Source of the DNA: an uncultured Burkholderiales bacterium | GTDB taxonomy: Bacteria; Pseudomonadota; Gammaproteobacteria; Burkholderiales; Burkholderiaceae_C | Length of the DNA: 34,977 nt | Reading direction: 5' to 3' | Assembly: GCA_903935585.1 (NCBI GenBank) | Contig: CAIZSE010000088.1 | Span: 1-34,977, forward strand | In this document: positions 11,241-33,735 of the stretch, piece by piece | Layout of the letters: the number at the start of each line of letters is the position of its first letter | Position numbering within the stretch: position 1 is the first letter of the stretch | Notes under the pieces: model-generated | The model's database searches: none | What the model was told of the DNA's origin: nothing | The model's input: the letters and a program-made list of their open reading frames with translations, nothing else | Made by a program: the position numbers and the translations under genes

Positions 11241-12896
11241 TCAGGCCTGGCCGATGGCGCGGGCCAATGCTGCCTGCACCTTGGCAATGTCCAGTTGGCG
11301 CCAGCGGCCCACCACATGCTGGTCGGGGCGCAACAGATAAGCAGTGCCAGCTTGGGCGTCATAGCGCTTGGCCATCCAGCCTTGGTGGTCCACCAGCACC
11401 TGAAAGCCGGGCACATCGAGCGCCTGGCGGGCCACGATCAGGGCCTCGACAGGCACTGCGCCTTGCTGGAGGGCCTGCAGTGCGGCCAAGTCTTTGCCAA
11501 CGGGCGCCGCATCCACAAAGTACAAAGCCTGAAAGCCCTTGCCCACTTGGTCGAGCAGCCAGGCGTCCTGCCCCTCGACCTGCACGGGGGCGTCGTCCAT
11601 GGGCGCGCCGGGCACCATATTGCCTTCAAAGGCATCGGCATCGGGCGTGTTGAGCGCCGAGCCCGTCAGGAACGAGGGCACCGACAAGCGGCCCGAGTTG
11701 ACCAGCTTGCGTGCAAACGGGTGATGCTTGGCCAGCGCCAGCACCTGGTTGCGGAAAGTCTTGCTGGTGCGGCTCTTGGGGGTGATGAAGTCGGTCGAGC
11801 GTGTCGAGTTCATGATGTTCTCGTCGGCGGCAAACTGGCGGTCGTGCGCATAGGTGTCGAGCAAGCGCTCGGACGCCTGGCCTTTGATCACCAGGCCCAG
11901 CTTCCACATCAGGTCATCGGCATCCTGAAAGCCAGAGTTGGCGCCACGCGCACCAAAGGGCGAGACCTGGTGCGCCGCGTCGCCCGCGAACAGCACGCGG
12001 CCGTGGCGAAAGTCGGTCATGCGGCGGCACTGGAAGGTGTAGATGCTGACCCACTCCAGCTCGAACGGGCGTTCATCGCCGAGCATGGCCTGCAGACGCG
12101 GAATGACTTTTTCAGGCTTCTTTTCTTCTTCAGGATCGGCGTCCCATCCGAGCTGAAAATCAATGCGCCAGACGTTGTTGCTTTGCTTGTGCAGCAGCAC
12201 GCTTTGGTTGGGGTGAAAGGGGGGGTCGAACCAGAACCAGCGCTCTGCCGGGTAGTCGGCCTTCATGATCACATCGGCGATCAGGAAACGGTCCTGGAAG
12301 ACGCGGCCTTCGATGTCCAGCCCCAAATGGCGGCGCACCGGGCTGCGCGCGCCATCGGCCACCACCAGCCAGTCGGCCTCGATGTCAAAGCAGCCATCGG
12401 GCGTTTCCACCGTCAGCGTGGCGTGCTCGGCGGCAGGGGTGACGGCGGTGACCTTGTGCTGCCAACGAATGTCTGCGCCCAGCTCCAGGGCCCGGGCGAT
12501 CAGCATTTCCTCAATGTGGTACTGCTGCAAATTGATCATGCCGGGGCGCTTGTGGCCCGCATCGGGCACCAGGTTGAACTGGTACACCTCCTCTTGCTCC
12601 AGGAAGGTGCGGCCAATGTTCCAGCTCACACCCATGTCGCAAGCTTGATCGGCAATGCCCAGCCGGTCCAGGATTTCGAGCGAGCGCTTGGCATAGCAAA
12701 CAGCCCGCGAGCCAACCGACACGGTCTTGTCGTCATCGAGCACCAACACCTCCAGCCCCTGCAGACGGGCATCGATGGCCGCAGCCAGACCCACAGGCCC
12801 TGCCCCAATGACGATCAGAGGCTTGCGCTGTGGGGGTGTCGACATCAGGTCGGCAGCCCCTTTGTAGGGGTAAATCGGGTTGGTATAAGCGCCCAT
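11241..12896 (-). CDS. FAD-dependent aromatic monooxygenase (MhpA/PheA/TfdB type)
   Basis: A 551-residue class A flavoprotein hydroxylase. The FAD dinucleotide fold is VIGAGPVGLAAAI (GxGxxG at 31-36), the DG motif is VVADGARSPVR, and the GD motif is VLFAGDAAHQVSPFGARGANSG. All three motifs are intact, so an NAD(P)H-driven aromatic ring hydroxylase is expected. A C-terminal thioredoxin-like domain (about 440-551), as in phenol and 3-(3-hydroxyphenyl)propionate hydroxylases, is present without a CxxC. ATG at 12896 follows GGAGAG; Met18 is a weaker alternative. It heads the operon with DUF2783 and VOC genes, behind a palindromic operator. The substrate is unknown. Confidence 0.9.
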   Translation of the reverse strand: MGAYTNPIYPYKGAADLMSTPPQRKPLIVIGAGPVGLAAAIDARLQGLEVLVLDDDKTVSVGSRAVCYAKRSLEILDRLGIADQACDMGVSWNIGRTFLEQEEVYQFNLVPDAGHKRPGMINLQQYHIEEMLIARALELGADIRWQHKVTAVTPAAEHATLTVETPDGCFDIEADWLVVADGARSPVRRHLGLDIEGRVFQDRFLIADVIMKADYPAERWFWFDPPFHPNQSVLLHKQSNNVWRIDFQLGWDADPEEEKKPEKVIPRLQAMLGDERPFELEWVSIYTFQCRRMTDFRHGRVLFAGDAAHQVSPFGARGANSGFQDADDLMWKLGLVIKGQASERLLDTYAHDRQFAADENIMNSTRSTDFITPKSRTSKTFRNQVLALAKHHPFARKLVNSGRLSVPSFLTGSALNTPDADAFEGNMVPGAPMDDAPVQVEGQDAWLLDQVGKGFQALYFVDAAPVGKDLAALQALQQGAVPVEALIVARQALDVPGFQVLVDHQGWMAKRYDAQAGTAYLLRPDQHVVGRWRQLDIAKVQAALARAIGQA

Positions 12897-23570: not shown

Positions 23571-24356
23571 ATGTCTACCACTCGCCCCGTCCTGTTTGTG
23601 CCCCACGGCTCCCCCATGTTTGCCCTGCGCCCCGGCGCGGCAGGTGCGGCCATGAGCCAGCTCGCGGCAAAGCTGGGCACGCCCCGCGCCATCGTGGTGG
23701 TCAGCCCGCACTGGGAAACCGCCGTGCCCACCGTCGGCTTTGCCACCCGGCCCGAGACCCTCCACGACTTTGGCGGCTTTGACCCCCGCCTGTACGACAT
23801 GCAATACCCCGCGACCGGTTGTCCCGAAGTCGCCGCCCAAGTCGTGAACGCTTTGCAAAATGCGGGCTTGCCGGTGGCGCAAGACGCCGGGCGCGGGCTG
23901 GACCACGGCGCCTGGATTCCGCTGCGCCAGATGTTCCCCGATGCGGACGTGCCGGTGGTGCCGTTGTCGGTGCAAAGCCATCTGGGGCCAGAACACGCTT
24001 ACCGCATCGGTCAGGCATTGGCACCTCTGGCTGCGCAAAACATCCTGATCCTGGCCTCGGGCAATGTGACGCACAACCTGCGCGACTTCATGCTGGTGAG
24101 CTCACAAGGGGGCGGCACCCCGACTTATGTGCAGGCATTTGCCGACTGGATCCACGCCCACATGACAGCGCGCGACGTGCCCGGCCTGCTGGCCTACCGC
24201 CAGACCGCCGAAGGCCAGCGCGCTCACCCCACCGACGAACACCTGTTGCCCCTGTTCACCGCCCTGGGTGCTGCGGGCGATGGCGCGCAGCCGGAGGCAT
24301 TTTTCCGGGGCATCAGTGACCATGTGATCGCCATGGACGGCTACACCTTCCACTGA
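23571..24356 (+). CDS. DODA-type (class III) extradiol ring-cleavage dioxygenase
   Basis: A 261-residue LigB-fold enzyme of the 4,5-DOPA dioxygenase family (YgiD-like). Conserved His residues are at 12 (VPHGSP), 47 (SPHWE), 112 (LDHGAW), 168 (GNVTHNL) and 219/224 (HPTDEH). These include the metal ligands and catalytic His of the family. It would open a catechol ring between or beside the hydroxyls; the physiological catechol is unknown. It is divergent from a LysR gene and 21 bases before the cytochrome b561 gene. The Shine-Dalgarno ahead of ATG is weak (GAAACCACC). Confidence 0.9.
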   Translation: MSTTRPVLFVPHGSPMFALRPGAAGAAMSQLAAKLGTPRAIVVVSPHWETAVPTVGFATRPETLHDFGGFDPRLYDMQYPATGCPEVAAQVVNALQNAGLPVAQDAGRGLDHGAWIPLRQMFPDADVPVVPLSVQSHLGPEHAYRIGQALAPLAAQNILILASGNVTHNLRDFMLVSSQGGGTPTYVQAFADWIHAHMTARDVPGLLAYRQTAEGQRAHPTDEHLLPLFTALGAAGDGAQPEAFFRGISDHVIAMDGYTFH

Positions 24357-26888: not shown

Positions 26889-27857
26889 TCAGTCGATTTT
26901 GGCGCCCGAGGCCTTCACCACCTGGGCCATGCGCACGAAGTCCGCCGCCAACAGCTTGCTGAAATCGGCGTTGCTCATGTCGCGGGGCTCGATGCCTTGC
27001 TTGTCCAGGCGGGCCAACACGGCCGGGTCTTTGAGCAGCTTGCTCACCGCCGCGTTGATGCGGTTGGCCTCTGCGGCCGGAACGGCAGCAGGGCCAAGGA
27101 AGCCGAACCAGGAATCAAACTGATAACCCGGCAAGCCACTCTCGGCAATGGTGGGCAAATCGGGCAGGTATTTGCTGCGCTGGGGCGAGGTCACGCCCAG
27201 CAAACGGATGCGGCTGTCTTTGGCAAATGACAGCGCACCGATGCTGGCCGCGATCACCGCCTGGGCACGGCCCGACAGCACTTCGTTGATGGCTTCGCCC
27301 GTGGCCTTGAGGGGCACATGCACCACGTCCGTGCCTGACAGGCCCGTGAAATAGGCCATGGCCAAGTGGGTGGCACTGCCCACGCCGGCGCTGGCGTAGT
27401 TCATCTTGCCGGGGTTGGCCTTGGCGTAACGGATGAATTCGGCCGCCGTTTTGGCCGGCACGTCGGGGTGCACCATCAGCACATAACTGGCGCTGCCAAT
27501 GTGCGCCAAGGGAGCAAAGTCTTTTTGCGGGTCGTAGGCCAGCTTGGTGTAAAGCGATCCTGCAATGTTGTGGCTGGCCGCCGCCGCCACCATCACGCTG
27601 CCATCGGCTTCTGCACGCGCCACATAGCCTGTACCAATGGTGCCGCCCGCGCCTGCGCGGTTTTCCACAATGACCGTTTGGCCCAAGGCCGCGCTCATCT
27701 CTTGTGTCAGGGCGCGGGCCAGCGTGTCTTGCACGCCCCCGGCCGCGAAGGGGACCACAATGCGCACCGGTTTGGTGGATTGGGCTTGGGCCATGCCCAC
27801 CGCTGTCAGCAAAGCGGTGCCCAGACTGGACGCCAAAAGTTCACGCCGTTGAATCAT
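26889..27857 (-). CDS. Bug/TctC-type periplasmic solute-binding protein (second)
   Basis: A 322-residue receptor with signal peptide MIQRRELLASSLGTALLTAVGMAQAQ, in which the paired Arg hints at the TAT-like leaders common in this family. The mature start is STKPVRIVVPFAAGGVQDTLARAL. LPDLPTIAESGLPGYQFDSWFG is typical. It is encoded 40 bases after argE on the same strand, so it may deliver an N-acylated amino acid or related acid to the deacylase. It differs widely from the other Bug protein here. AAGGAA precedes ATG 27857. Confidence 0.92.
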   Translation of the reverse strand: MIQRRELLASSLGTALLTAVGMAQAQSTKPVRIVVPFAAGGVQDTLARALTQEMSAALGQTVIVENRAGAGGTIGTGYVARAEADGSVMVAAAASHNIAGSLYTKLAYDPQKDFAPLAHIGSASYVLMVHPDVPAKTAAEFIRYAKANPGKMNYASAGVGSATHLAMAYFTGLSGTDVVHVPLKATGEAINEVLSGRAQAVIAASIGALSFAKDSRIRLLGVTSPQRSKYLPDLPTIAESGLPGYQFDSWFGFLGPAAVPAAEANRINAAVSKLLKDPAVLARLDKQGIEPRDMSNADFSKLLAADFVRMAQVVKASGAKID

Positions 27858-27897: not shown

Positions 27898-29118
27898 TCA
27901 GGCCACGCACACCCGGTCGGCCAGGCGGCGCATGAAGCGCTCACACCAGGCCAGTTGTTCAATCGTGACCCACTCGTTGGGCTGGTGCGCCTGCGCAATA
28001 TGGCCCGGGCCGCACACGATGGTGGGCACGCCGGCCTGATGAAACAATGCAGCTTCCGTGCCAAAAGAGACCTTGCCTGCCCCGTTGGCCGGATCGACCT
28101 CGGCGCAGTCAAAGCACAGTTGGGCAATCTCGCTGTCGGCCTCGGTGGCAAAACCCGGCAGCACCGATTTGAGTTCGTGCGTGATGCCCGTGTCGGGCGC
28201 CACCGCTTGCATGGCAGGCACCAGGCTCTGCCCAAAGGCCTGGGCCTGGGCAAACAAGGCCTCGGGCGAGTTCATGTGGTGGTGGCGGATTTCCCAGGTC
28301 ACTTCGCACTGACGCGGGATGATGTTGAGCGCGGTGCCCCCCGCGATGACGCCGGTGTGGATGGTGGTGTGCGGCACATCGTAAATCAGGTCAAACGGGC
28401 CGTTTTGCACCAACTCGCGGTGCATGGCTTTGAGGTTCGCCACAAACTCGCAGGCGATCTCGACCGCGTTCACGCCCAAGGGCGTGAGTGAGGAATGCGC
28501 CTCAAAACCGTGCACGGTGGTTTTGTACGAGTGCTTGCCTTTGTGCGCGATCACCACCTGCATGCCGGTGGGCTCGCCCACGATGCAGCCAGCGGGCTTG
28601 AAGCCCTGGGCCTGCATGTCGGCGATCATGCGGCGCACGCCGATGCAGCCCACCTCTTCGTCGTAGCTGAAGGCCAGATGGATCGGCCGCTTGAGCTGGC
28701 GCTTGAGCAACTCGGGCACCATCATCAGGCAGGTGGCGCCAAAACCCTTCATGTCGGTCACGCCCCGGCCAAACATCTTGTCGCCCATGATCTCGACCTT
28801 GAACGGGTCGGTGTCCCAGGGCTGGCCGTCCACCGGCACCACATCGGTGTGGCCCGACAAGACCAGTCCGCCAACTTTGGTTTCGCCGTCGTGCGCAGGC
28901 AGCGTGGCCCACAGGTTGGCCTTTTGGCCACTGTCGTCATACGTTCGGCTGCAGCTGATGCCCAGATCATTCAAATAGGCCTCGGTCCAGTCCAGCAAAG
29001 CCAGGTTGCTGTCGCGTGAAACCGTGGCAAAGGCAATCCATTTTTCGATCAGGGGCAGGGCGGCCAGATCGGCGGCCTGCACATTGGCCAAGGCAGCGCT
29101 TGAAAGAGGGGCGTTCAT
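27898..29118 (-). CDS. argE: acetylornithine deacetylase (M20 family)
   Basis: A 406-residue metallohydrolase of peptidase family M20, ArgE group, hydrolysing N2-acetylornithine to ornithine. Metal and catalytic residues are His90/Asp92 (SGHTDVVPVDG), Asp122 (GRGVTDMKG), the Glu154-Glu155 pair (YDEEVGCIG), Glu in GEPTGM, and a late His (GPGHIAQAHQPNEW). ATG 29118 follows GGAG; the upstream frame is not conserved. Pairing with a Bug receptor instead of arginine genes suggests that it may serve catabolism of an acylated amino acid, so the symbol is by similarity. Confidence 0.88.
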   Translation of the reverse strand: MNAPLSSAALANVQAADLAALPLIEKWIAFATVSRDSNLALLDWTEAYLNDLGISCSRTYDDSGQKANLWATLPAHDGETKVGGLVLSGHTDVVPVDGQPWDTDPFKVEIMGDKMFGRGVTDMKGFGATCLMMVPELLKRQLKRPIHLAFSYDEEVGCIGVRRMIADMQAQGFKPAGCIVGEPTGMQVVIAHKGKHSYKTTVHGFEAHSSLTPLGVNAVEIACEFVANLKAMHRELVQNGPFDLIYDVPHTTIHTGVIAGGTALNIIPRQCEVTWEIRHHHMNSPEALFAQAQAFGQSLVPAMQAVAPDTGITHELKSVLPGFATEADSEIAQLCFDCAEVDPANGAGKVSFGTEAALFHQAGVPTIVCGPGHIAQAHQPNEWVTIEQLAWCERFMRRLADRVCVA

Positions 29119-29278
29119 GAGGGGCTCCGTCAAAAATGGCCTCGAGCGGGTGAGGACGTGCATTGATCTTACAGGGCCTCACCGTGCAAGTGGGCGAAGG
29201 GCGTCACCTTGCCGACATGCCCACGGGCCGTGCCCGCCTAAAGTGGGCGGGTCATCCACCTCATTACCTGGAGTTTTC

Positions 29279-29596
29279 ATGGCCATTTATGAACTGCGCA
29301 CCTACAGCGTGATCGTCGGAAAAATGTCGGAAGTCATCTCGCATTACAGCCAGGAGGGCTGGCCTGCGCTGTCCAAGCACCCGCAGAAATTGGTGGGCTA
29401 TTTCACGGGCGACGTGGGCGCGCTGAACGAACTGATCCATGTGTGGAAATTTGACGACGACGCCGACCGCCGGGCCTTTTGGGCCGGGGTCTTTTCCGAC
29501 CCGGCCTTTATGGCCTTTGCAGCCAAAATCCGACCGCTCATGCGCGAGCAAAACAACAAGCTCATGCTGTCAGCGCCCTGGGGACCCCAGCCCTGA
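29279..29596 (+). CDS. NIPSNAP family protein
   Basis: A 105-residue ferredoxin-like alpha+beta protein. MAIYELRTYSVIVGKMSEV, then LVGYFTGDVGALNELIHVWKFDD and ADRRAFWAGVF, is the NIPSNAP pattern. The biochemical function is unknown; bacterial members often sit near catabolic genes. TGGAG precedes ATG. A CCCGCC/GGCGGG inverted repeat (29233-29251) lies upstream. It converges on the SDR gene of the dehalogenase operon (33 bases between stops). Confidence 0.88.
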   Translation: MAIYELRTYSVIVGKMSEVISHYSQEGWPALSKHPQKLVGYFTGDVGALNELIHVWKFDDDADRRAFWAGVFSDPAFMAFAAKIRPLMREQNNKLMLSAPWGPQP

Positions 29597-30364: not shown

Positions 30365-33300
30365 TTAAAGATCGAGGGCGATCAGACCCCCGGCATGCTT
30401 GGCCCGTGAGCAGCACAGGATGATGTTGTGTTGTCGCTGCTTTTGCCCGAGTACAAAGTCACGGTGCTCGACCTCGTCAGACGCCTGTGCGTCGTAGTGC
30501 CGGGCACACACGCCACACAGGCCGTCGCTGCATTTCACGTCGATGGCCACGCCTGCATCGGCCAGCACTTCGGTGGCGCTGCGGTCGGCGGGCACACTCA
30601 GGCGGCGCCCTGACTTTTGCAGCAGCAACTCAAAAGGCTGGTTCACCCAGGCGTCTGCCTCGGGCACGCTGAAGTATTCGCGGTGCATGGACTCTTCTGG
30701 CCAGCCGTGCGCGGTGGCGGCCTCGAACACGCCGTCCATGAAACGCGGCGCACCGCAGGTGTAGACGTGCCTGCCCGGCTCATATGCAGGCAGCAATTGC
30801 ATCAAGTCGGCACGCTGGCCTTCGTCCTTGAAGTGGAACCGCACCCGCTCAGTCCATGGGGCGCTGGCCAGGTCTTTCAGAAAGCCCGCCGTCTTTCGGC
30901 TGCCTGCGCTGTAATGAAAGTCAAAGGGCTTGCCCAAAGCGTGCAGCCGGTGCGCCATGGCGATCATGGGCGTCACGCCAATGCCGCCTGCCAACAGCCA
31001 GCTGTGCGCAGCGTCTTCGTGCAGCGCAAAGTGGTTGACGGGGCGCGACACAAACACCCGCCGCCCTTCGCGAAAGGCCCGGTGCATCAGGGCCGAGCCG
31101 CCACGCCCGCCAAGCTCCGGGGGCTCACGCAAAACGCCCAGCACGTAACGGCTGCGGTCGGCCGGGTCACCTGCCAGGCTATAGGGCCGCTGGTATTCGG
31201 GCGCGATCACCACATCAATGTGGCCCCCCGCCTCAAAAGGCGGCAGCGCACTGCCATCGGGCGCCTTGAACTCATAGCGCGCCAGGCCCTCGGCCATCTC
31301 TTCGCGGCGGTGCAGCACCACCGGGAACACGGGCGGCTCGCCCTGCAAGGGCTGCGGCCCCGGGGCCAGGCCGTCGGTTTGGCCTGCCGCCAGCCGGGCC
31401 TGGTATTGCACTGGTGTGAGCAAGGTCTGGTAGCGTGCAATGCCTTCTTCTCGGTTGACCGGGTAGGTCACCGGGTAAGGCGGCGGCATTTTGTCGGCCG
31501 GGTAGACGGCCAGGGTCTGGTCTTCGTAGCGCAGCTTCAGGTCTTTTTGCAGGCCGCGGCGATGCGTTTGCTGCGCCTGCACATAGCGCCCGGTGCGCTT
31601 GTCCAGCTCGATGTCCCACCACCATTTTTTGACCGGGTTGATGCTGCCCCGGTCCATCAGGTCATCCAGGCGGGCCAAGGCCGGTGCAGCGGCTGGCAAC
31701 TTCATGGCCACCTGTCGCCACAGGCTGTCGGCCAGCAGGCCTTCGAGGTTCCAGGGGCAGGTTTTCATGCAGCGCCCGCACATGCCGCCAGCGGCGTTGG
31801 TGATGCGGTAACGGGCGCATTTTTCGGCGTCGCTTTTCCAGATTTCGTAGCCGTTGTACATCAGCTTGGGGCCTGCGGTGATGGCCCCTGACGGGCACTC
31901 GCGGGCGCACTTGTTGCAGCTTTCGCAAAAGCTTTGCAAACCAAAGTCGATGGGCCGGTCTGCCGTCATGGGCATGTCGGTGGTCACGCTGCCACTTTTC
32001 AGGCGCGGGCCCAAAAACGGGTTGAGGATCACCTCGCCAATCCGGCTGACCTCGCCAAGGCCTGACAACAACAGCAAGGGGGGCTGAAGCACATCGCCAT
32101 CGAGCACGGAATGCACCCGGGCCGAATAACCCAGACGCCGGATCTGCTCGGCCAGGATGCCGCCCATGAGAGAAAACCGCAGATAAGCCCGCATGCTTTG
32201 CGCCACAGAAATCCAGTCGTCGCCACTCGCGCCTTCCATGGTCTCGTGTCCCTGGTCGATCAGCAGGTTCAGCGCGTTGGCGTGGTAGGCCGGCATGGGG
32301 TTGCCGCCCGCGTCGTGCGAGTAATAGGCCCACTCGGGCACGGCGCACAGGCCCACCGCGTCGACCCCCAGGTAATACGAGGCGGCTTTCAGATTGTCGG
32401 CATTGCGCAGCGGGTCGGCGGTGCTGGCCGCCACCGGGCCACGCGCCGGGCCAAATTGCAAGAGCAGCAAAGCCCCCAGCGCCCGGCGTGCACAGGCCCC
32501 GATGGGGCTTTTCATCACGTAGTGCGCGTTCTTGGCGCTGTCTTGCACGGTCTTGCCCAAATCGCCAAACAGGGCACGCGCAAAAAAGTCGGCACGCTTG
32601 GGAAAGCGCGGCACCCGCTCGTGGTCAATGAAGGTGGTGGGCGTGTCGCGACGCTTGAGCGTCTCAAACGGGTGCGCGCCTTGGCGAAACTCGCGCTGGG
32701 CAAATCCGTCCCGGTGCAAGGCCCCCTTGAAGGTGCCCCGGCCAAGCCACCAGGCCGGGCCGTGGGTGTGCCAGCGGTTTTGCTGGGGCGACAGGGCCTG
32801 GTCGGGTGCCAACGCCAAGGTGGTGCTGACCGCCGCCAAGGCAAATCGATCGCCGACATACGGGTTTCGACCCTCCGCATCTGTCAGGCCGGCCGCCAGG
32901 GCCAGACGCCCCAGATCCAGGTCGCTGCAGCTGGCGCTGTGCGCGCGGGCTTCATGCCCGAGCATGCGCAAATAACTGGACAGCAACACGGCAGTTTGCG
33001 CGGCCAGCACGGCAGCACGCTGGGCTTGCGTGCCCGCCAGCCAGTCGCAACCGGGCTCACCAGGTTTCGGGTCACGCGCAAATTCCACCAGGATCACGAT
33101 GGCTTGCCCGTGGTGCGCTATCGGCCCATGCACCGTGCGTGCCGAGTCCAGCACATCGGCCAGGATCATGTCCATGCCCGCCGCAAAACTGGCCGGTTGG
33201 CTTTGCGCCAGCTCTTCACCCAGCGCGGGTACGGCGGGGTTGCGGATCGGATCGGCCAGCCAAGCTGTGGCGGGCAGGGTGCAGATGCCCATGATCGATG

Positions 33301-33583
33301 CGTCAAAGTAATAGCCAGCGGCCTTCAGGTGCTGGGCGCGTTCGTTGGTGTCTTGAGGAATTTCCCCGATTTGCGGGTTGACTGCGCCATCGCGCACCAG
33401 GTCAAACATGGCCATGTAACGCGCCATGGCGTGCGACAAGGATTCGGGGTCATCGTGCGCAAAGCGCAGTGCCTGCATGGGCGGCAGGCCGCTGTCGTCA
33501 GGCGCGGCGCTTGTGCGGCGCAAGCGCTCCAGCGGGTAGGGCCCCAGGTGAACGGGGCGGTCGCGGTATGAAAACAAACGCAT
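30365..33583 (-). CDS. self-sufficient reductive dehalogenase fused to flavin/[2Fe-2S] reductase
   Basis: 1072 residues. Residues about 390-615 form the corrinoid/[4Fe-4S] core of reductive dehalogenases. It contains GLGEVSRIGEV, TTDMPMTADRPIDFG and two ferredoxin clusters (Cys553-556-559-563 and Cys589-602-605-609). Residues 80-255 look like a degenerate copy of the core (HLKAAGYYFDASIMGICTLP versus NLKAASYYLGVDAVGLCAVP). From about 750 on is a phthalate-dioxygenase-reductase-like module: flavin site RPYSLAG (799-805), NAD site AGGIGVTPMI (865-874) and plant [2Fe-2S] Cys1018, 1023, 1026, 1057. There is no TAT signal and no RdhB anchor gene. This is the architecture of cytoplasmic, catabolic, oxygen-tolerant enzymes such as BhbA (bromoxynil). 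It probably reduces a halogenated phenolic or benzoate using NAD(P)H. The chosen ATG is 33583; TTG 33610 is possible. Confidence 0.88.
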   Translation of the reverse strand: MRLFSYRDRPVHLGPYPLERLRRTSAAPDDSGLPPMQALRFAHDDPESLSHAMARYMAMFDLVRDGAVNPQIGEIPQDTNERAQHLKAAGYYFDASIMGICTLPATAWLADPIRNPAVPALGEELAQSQPASFAAGMDMILADVLDSARTVHGPIAHHGQAIVILVEFARDPKPGEPGCDWLAGTQAQRAAVLAAQTAVLLSSYLRMLGHEARAHSASCSDLDLGRLALAAGLTDAEGRNPYVGDRFALAAVSTTLALAPDQALSPQQNRWHTHGPAWWLGRGTFKGALHRDGFAQREFRQGAHPFETLKRRDTPTTFIDHERVPRFPKRADFFARALFGDLGKTVQDSAKNAHYVMKSPIGACARRALGALLLLQFGPARGPVAASTADPLRNADNLKAASYYLGVDAVGLCAVPEWAYYSHDAGGNPMPAYHANALNLLIDQGHETMEGASGDDWISVAQSMRAYLRFSLMGGILAEQIRRLGYSARVHSVLDGDVLQPPLLLLSGLGEVSRIGEVILNPFLGPRLKSGSVTTDMPMTADRPIDFGLQSFCESCNKCARECPSGAITAGPKLMYNGYEIWKSDAEKCARYRITNAAGGMCGRCMKTCPWNLEGLLADSLWRQVAMKLPAAAPALARLDDLMDRGSINPVKKWWWDIELDKRTGRYVQAQQTHRRGLQKDLKLRYEDQTLAVYPADKMPPPYPVTYPVNREEGIARYQTLLTPVQYQARLAAGQTDGLAPGPQPLQGEPPVFPVVLHRREEMAEGLARYEFKAPDGSALPPFEAGGHIDVVIAPEYQRPYSLAGDPADRSRYVLGVLREPPELGGRGGSALMHRAFREGRRVFVSRPVNHFALHEDAAHSWLLAGGIGVTPMIAMAHRLHALGKPFDFHYSAGSRKTAGFLKDLASAPWTERVRFHFKDEGQRADLMQLLPAYEPGRHVYTCGAPRFMDGVFEAATAHGWPEESMHREYFSVPEADAWVNQPFELLLQKSGRRLSVPADRSATEVLADAGVAIDVKCSDGLCGVCARHYDAQASDEVEHRDFVLGQKQRQHNIILCCSRAKHAGGLIALDL

Positions 33584-33600: not shown

Positions 33601-33735
33601 TCAGCCCCAACGCGCGGGCGAGCGCATGGCCATCAAGTTCTGGATGCCGCCATCGCCATGTGGCGCAACGCCATGCCTTGGCAACGCAGTGGCCATGCCG
33701 CCGCCAACGATGAGAAAGTCTGCGGTGGGGGTCAT
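33601..33735 (-). pseudogene. N-terminal stump of a FAD-dependent oxidoreductase
   Basis: A 44-codon frame starting MTPTADFLIVGGGMA, the unmistakable first strand and GxGxxG loop of a Rossmann FAD protein (DFLIVGGG). After Ala15 the sequence no longer reads like the family, and the frame stops at 33601, 17 bases before the dehalogenase ATG. It looks like a gene reduced by deletion to its first 15 codons plus scar. A short tail in the dehalogenase frame (GHALARALGLNPG) may be another remnant piece. Confidence 0.6.

Follow-up and report, generated by a model that had tools for sequence, protein, structure and literature searches.

Few enzymes of the self-sufficient class of catabolic reductive dehalogenases (RdhA) have been assayed in the literature consulted. 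One of them is JtRdhA, which let E. coli W grow on 3-bromo-4-hydroxyphenylacetate according to PMC10463259; the same paper describes an insert in the fused enzymes and an N-terminal duplicate domain that is vestigial in this enzyme type. For NpRdhA, PMC7565698 names Y426 as the proton donor and K488, R552, and S422 as the residues that bind the substrate hydroxyl, and homologues of a further gene, bhbA, are described as widespread in the Roseobacter clade in PMC13101508. Here, we describe a gene of this kind, rdhA, on contig CAIZSE010000088.1 (assembly GCA_903935585.1) of an uncultured Burkholderiales bacterium; the whole stretch analyzed, 34,977 nucleotides, is referred to as the window. We assign its genome to Limnohabitans, a major freshwater bacterioplankton genus, from the named relatives among the 80 loci described below.

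The rdhA reading frame contains no internal stops and keeps all catalytic residues (Table 1). Its reductive dehalogenase core is homologous to NpRdhA/PceA, residues 3-735 of the predicted structure align with residues 4-697 of the NpRdhA structure 4RAS, and the C terminus carries a phthalate dioxygenase reductase (PDOR)-like module with a [2Fe-2S] motif. The alignment starts at the first residue of NpRdhA and covers window residues 1-104 and then 157 onward, which indicates that the N-terminal duplicate domain is present. Residues 104-145 face a gap in NpRdhA plus ten residues unread in 4RAS, and they are compatible with the insert published for the fused enzymes. Specifically at the active site, we compared 93 rows (the window protein, 91 loci, and NpRdhA; here and in the cysteine counts below, the rows may include near-copies and the same genome under two ids), in which the positions of NpRdhA F291, S422, M423, Y426, K488, and R552 are identical throughout (93/93); F334, S463, and M464 are the window counterparts of the first three, and the rest are tabulated. 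The eight [4Fe-4S] cysteines are invariant in 92/92 rows, with the partial row L090 left out, as are the four [2Fe-2S] cysteines in all 88 fused rows. A motif and hydropathy scan, as distinct from a trained predictor, found neither a twin-arginine translocation (TAT) signal nor an RdhB anchor gene, and with both missing we rejected a respiratory reductive dehalogenase. The protein also passes the reductive dehalogenase model TIGR02486 (172 against a cut-off of 160). Thus, the initial annotation was right to see a fused, cytoplasmic reductive dehalogenase with its own reductase, complete in its cluster cysteines and free of TAT signal and anchor gene, and the active-site Tyr/Lys/Arg that it wished to see aligned are in place.

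The relatives of the gene were collected by tblastn against the genome collection at 1e-3, which gave 450 matching stretches. We kept 80 loci, each matching at least residues 2-1060, with identities from 91% (Limnohabitans) down to 55%; the remainder, of unchecked length, may include reductase-only relatives. It is therefore only of the assayed enzymes that one can say they are known from few organisms. A tree of 86 rows splits 73 fused rows including BhbA from 13 reductase-less rows with a Shimodaira-Hasegawa-like approximate likelihood ratio (SH-aLRT) support of 100, in a quick LG+G4 search that was drawn at the midpoint and gave long-branch warnings for BhbA and NpRdhA. Since NpRdhA has no reductase and the tree separates the two, the earlier label of a "BhbA/NpRdhA type" merges two clades, and it is the BhbA side that applies. 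Compared with 12 Limnohabitans-group orthologues, the window gene has ratios of nonsynonymous to synonymous divergence (dN/dS) of 0.095-0.117; two orthologues from farther away give 0.16. Two loci carry unexpected titles, Bordetella parapertussis (L029, CAMBZS010000081.1) and Candidatus Fonsibacter lacus (L034, RFXW01000085.1); their genes group with other betaproteobacterial copies, mostly from metagenome-assembled genomes, and they are possibly mislabelled or contaminated bins.

In a sample of the family, matches reach 1e-100 or better in 11 of 399 genomes, of which three show ~44% identity over the dehalogenase part only. The genus search comprised 90 genomes, window included, with up to eight candidates scored per genome. 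Its genomes (G ids) overlap with the named loci (L ids), all 12 pairs tested being the same DNA, and the two sets are therefore not independent samples. A full-length fused rdhA (at least 86% identity) occurs in 15 of the 90, window included, and a fragmented one in G424 and G400. Another 14 genomes contain a 43-47% identical type whose match is limited to the dehalogenase part; in four the match includes stops, and ten of the 14 appear as stop-free open reading frames (ORFs) of 691-751 aa that lack a reductase. Fused (15 intact and two fragmented) and reductase-less genes never co-occur, for which we calculate a chance of 0.04-0.06 with kinship ignored, and this mutual exclusion may reflect chance or kinship.

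Taken together, the intactness of the gene, its constraint, its conserved residues, its clade, its predicted fold, and its neighbors, with the riboswitch-led uptake-type operon and downstream genes found elsewhere in the genome (below), can be read directly, and we assign the protein to the cytoplasmic self-sufficient catabolic reductive dehalogenases of the BhbA/JtRdhA class, including the electron path, substrate, product, and B12 import set out here, with a probability of roughly 0.87. By analogy to homologues, which is also how cofactor binding, electron path, oxygen tolerance, and substrate class are proposed, the enzyme very probably removes bromine or iodine from phenol-like compounds via its built-in electron supply. 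NAD(P)H would reduce the flavin of the C-terminal module, and electrons would pass from the flavin through the [2Fe-2S] cluster and the two [4Fe-4S] clusters to cobalamin. The substrate would be a 4-substituted halophenol whose ortho halogen binds the cobalt and whose phenolic oxygen is gripped by S463, K529, and R593, with Y467 donating a proton as the halogen leaves. Bromo- and iodophenolics appear the likeliest substrates, chlorophenolics less so. The products, resembling 4-hydroxybenzoate or 4-hydroxyphenylacetate, could feed PobA/LigAB or HpaD routes, and PobA, LigA, LigB, and HpaD, the steps of these routes that the search covered, all score above their cut-offs in the window genome (contigs C112, C127, and C102). 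The host cell probably imports its B12 rather than making it: CobS was not found in the genome (99.88% complete) by a search that was positive in 10 of 14 control genomes, and a cobalamin riboswitch (72.1 bits) lies immediately before a BtuB homologue in an operon in which one of two substrate-binding-type proteins matches BtuF (77 bits).

Several points weigh against this assignment. The predicted structure contains no cofactors, and its predicted local distance difference test (pLDDT) score falls below 50 at residues 446-452 and 501-527, near Y467 and K529 in sequence. Five pocket-lining residues differ from NpRdhA (K307/F310/P311/A419/N452 become N352/Y355/V356/V460/V493), so the substrates of NpRdhA are not transferable to the window protein; valine is most frequent at the 419 position (75/93) and at the 452 position (86/93), which makes NpRdhA the odd one. 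The gene is patchy across the genus, and some members are broken or reduced to stubs. Pfam PF13486 (Dehalogenase) does not match the protein, a negative that says little since the genome search with this model was positive in none of 14 controls. Literature searches on Limnohabitans dehalogenases listed no paper whose title or opening of the abstract gives an account of the gene, and activity data for a close Limnohabitans homologue were not found. None of the BtuB, BtuF, BtuC, and BtuD matches reaches its NCBIfam equivalog cut-off, and the operon's permease and ATPase score better with FhuB and a heme-transporter model, so that the B12 reading draws on the riboswitch and BtuB. Finally, LigAB is encoded on C127 and PobA on C112, apart from the window on C88, whereas ligAB adjoins bhbA on plasmid pBHB; the linkage to the dehalogenase gene that marks the BhbA-type plasmid cluster is absent from the window.

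The gene of a short-chain dehydrogenase/reductase (SDR) directly behind rdhA is probably co-transcribed with it, and the initial annotation had seen in it the possibility of a new pathway. Its nearest structural matches, near full length (E 1.7e-56), are 4AVY/4B79, a probable short-chain dehydrogenase that we take to be PA4098, and KduD/BudC-type SDRs; among 25 NCBIfam matches listed, none passes its cut-off. We consider it unlikely that rdhA and the SDR gene encode two steps of one catabolic route, in which the SDR would oxidize or reduce the side chain (e.g., an aryl alcohol or ketone) of a halogenated phenolic, RdhA would dehalogenate the compound, and cleavage of the ketone by a cupin dioxygenase encoded elsewhere may yield 4-hydroxybenzoate. 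The SDR gene (at least 82% identity) does directly follow rdhA in 14 of the 15 genus genomes with an intact fused gene, at gaps of 15-80 bp, and it adjoins rdhA in 11 of the 12 loci L004-L015; but L014, which is genome G454, has rdhA without it, and among the 68 remaining kept loci the best SDR match in the flanks retrieved, some of them short, is at most 43% identical. Moreover, eight further genomes possess the SDR but no intact fused rdhA (G416, G438, G449, G402, G462, G420, G400, and, partially, G452). In the five with readable flanks (G416, G462, G438, G449, and G402), no intact rdhA is present: stubs of residues 1024-1072 and 987-1072 directly precede the SDR in G416 and G462, and G438, G449, and G402 show no protein-level trace of rdhA beside it, which documents its absence there but not its loss. 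The SDR region of G420 and G452 ends close to where the contig does, and rdhA is present as two pieces in G400.

At the level of substitutions, the SDR genes of G438 and G449, neither of which has a fused rdhA, are separated by dN 0.013 and dS 0.116, and those of the window and G416 by dN 0.013 and dS 0.275; these low dN values argue that the SDR is maintained without rdhA, in comparisons that cover time when rdhA may still have existed. Remnants of rdhA beside a retained SDR lie at L164 7836-7982 and L166 8508-8765 (C-terminal stubs) and at L110 1336-2430 (in pieces); rdhA has been lost repeatedly at one locus while the SDR was retained. The SDR is also no commoner in genomes with an unlinked reductase-less RdhA (5/14) than genus-wide (36/90). 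We thus rejected the SDR as an obligate pathway partner, since it is kept where rdhA is missing; it is an associated yet separable gene, observed in close linkage only in the Limnohabitans group, and the new pathway proposed through it is weakly founded.

Another observation was that SDR relatives of 75-76% identity in G403 and G415 adjoin a cupin gene (L170 7723-8943 and L171 7551-8774). This cupin is close to the 2,4'-dihydroxyacetophenone dioxygenase 5BPX (E 8e-39) and has no NCBIfam match up to E 1; its adjacency is a lead for, not proof of, a phenolic side-chain role of the SDR. It speaks for the shared route in that both genomes have a reductase-less RdhA elsewhere and that the window genome has a 51% cupin homologue, although no SDR is among the ORFs listed beside the latter. 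It is tempting to speculate further that the rdhA-SDR pair is an operon funneling natural halogenated aryl-alcohol or aryl-ketone phenolics of algal or humic origin to 4-hydroxybenzoate. In this scheme, RdhA would draw on imported B12 to debrominate or deiodinate them in air, and the SDR would ready the side chain for a cupin resembling 2,4'-dihydroxyacetophenone dioxygenase. A pocket that is more hydrophobic (V460, V493, V356, and N352) would suit neutral side chains, not benzoates, and an SDR also serving non-halogenated compounds would explain why it outlives rdhA; we regard this scheme as more doubtful still than the shared route itself.

It is very improbable that the window rdhA is a decaying, nonfunctional accessory gene at a locus being lost from Limnohabitans. 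The restriction of the full-length gene to 15 of 90 genomes, the pieces in G400 and G424, the stubs in G416 and G462, and the remnant of a flavin adenine dinucleotide (FAD) oxidoreductase gene beside rdhA would fit such decay, but the window copy is stop-free with complete catalytic residues, and its dN/dS is ~0.1 against 12 orthologues. Least credible of all is an enzyme that does not dehalogenate, be it epoxyqueuosine-reductase-like (QueG) or another member of the class III cobalamin enzymes, a family that RdhA and QueG share according to PMC10463259: the substrate of the window protein is a prediction and the QueG model TIGR00276 does give a weak match, but at 26.2 bits against a cut-off of 200, for which we rejected QueG itself, with TIGR02486 passed, the halophenol-binding Ser/Tyr/Lys/Arg set invariant, and the whole protein aligning to an assayed enzyme. 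The initial annotation had pointed to lost corrinoid-pocket residues or QueG-like chemistry as signs of a different enzyme; with the catalytic pocket residues kept and the two models scoring as they do, its dehalogenase reading stands as far as sequence allows.

The order SDR-NIPSNAP-M20-TctC beyond rdhA is held in most Limnohabitans loci with long enough contigs; L012 lacks M20 and TctC, and L014 all four. The TctC gene, ~2.5 kb downstream of rdhA, belongs to a flank retained also without rdhA. On the other side, the FAD oxidoreductase gene is intact (375 aa) at the same place in two relatives, each under two ids (L006 = L098, L015 = L106). A sugar-acid operon runs divergently from the rdhA locus in L012 (2773-7800), and similarly in L004, L007, and L008, with a 3-oxo-tetronate kinase (629 bits, cut-off 350), a 2-oxo-tetronate isomerase (339, cut-off 325), and two more genes that are presumably LtnD and OtnC. 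We rejected it as part of the dehalogenase system, as it occurs also without rdhA (L164, L166, and L169); tblastn with the sugar-acid enzymes found only TctC relatives in the window, which stops ~350 bp past the methyltransferase, so that presence of the operon is not judgeable there. The window further encodes, on the minus strand, an FAD-dependent aromatic hydroxylase-like protein (11241-12896; NF006002, 828 bits, cut-off 416) and, on the plus strand, a LigB-family protein nearest 4,5-DOPA extradiol dioxygenase (23571-24356; 193 bits, below the cut-off of 233).

Table 1. Features of the rdhA locus and of the putative cobalamin uptake operon (window coordinates unless a locus is given)
Feature	Position	Strand	Remarks
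rdhA, predicted self-sufficient catabolic reductive dehalogenase, 1072 aa	30365..33583	-	
N-terminal part, ~residues 1-330	32594..33583	-	Matches vestigial non-cobalamin-binding duplicate of NpRdhA; alignment to 4RAS; boundary approximate
Cobalamin-binding catalytic core and [4Fe-4S] region, ~residues 331-735	31379..32593	-	Mapped onto NpRdhA
Two [4Fe-4S] motifs, C553 C556 C559 C563 and C589 C602 C605 C609	31757..31927	-	
PDOR-like module (flavin, NAD(P)H, [2Fe-2S]), ~residues 750-1072	30368..31336	-	
[2Fe-2S] motif, C1018 C1023 C1026 C1057	30413..30532	-	
Y467	32183-32185	-	NpRdhA Y426
K529	31997-31999	-	NpRdhA K488
R593	31805-31807	-	NpRdhA R552
Classical SDR oxidoreductase, 239 aa	29630..30349	-	15 bp downstream of rdhA
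NIPSNAP-family protein	29279..29596	+	PF07978; convergent with SDR; conserved Limnohabitans neighbor
M20/acetylornithine-deacetylase-like hydrolase	27898..29163	-	NF005710, 509 bits; conserved flank, dehalogenation link not evident
TctC/Bug-type solute-binding protein	26889..27857	-	PF03401; conserved flank
FAD-dependent oxidoreductase gene, 44-codon remnant	33601..33735	-	Between methyltransferase and rdhA
Cobalamin riboswitch, then BtuB homologue, two substrate-binding-type proteins, permease, ABC ATPase	L181 8196-13916		G000 contig C85

The window rdhA is a well-founded addition to the known self-sufficient catabolic RdhA class, not a new pathway; the class gains reach into a freshwater genus, and no new reaction is added. 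Because intact, constrained copies in several freshwater Limnohabitans coincide with apparent B12 import and ring-cleavage routes, these bacteria are testable candidates for aerobic debromination or deiodination of phenolics in lakes and rivers.

Among the named systems, NpRdhA (Nitratireductor pacificus; 4RAS, 6ZXU, and 6ZXX) has no reductase module and is 43.2% identical to the window protein, with the five pocket differences given above. JtRdhA (Jhaorihella thermophila, WP_104007082), compared through its description in PMC10463259, is an assayed enzyme, whereas ours is known from sequence; it has the same domain order, with a duplicated cobalamin-binding domain, two [4Fe-4S] clusters, and a PDOR-like reductase, and the window protein likewise has no TAT signal, equivalents of Y426, K488, and R552, and an extra segment relative to NpRdhA. 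On plasmid pBHB of Comamonas sp. 7D-2 (NC_021077), which is typed as conjugative, bhbA is directly preceded by ligAB and the gene of a TctC-type protein and followed by porin and IS3 genes, unlike the SDR, NIPSNAP, M20, and TctC genes of the window, and the five variable pocket positions read D/S/V/S/A in BhbA (WP_015585978) against N/Y/V/V/V here. Nonetheless, BhbA is fused like the window protein, is 51.8% identical to it, and has all catalytic residues in common with it.
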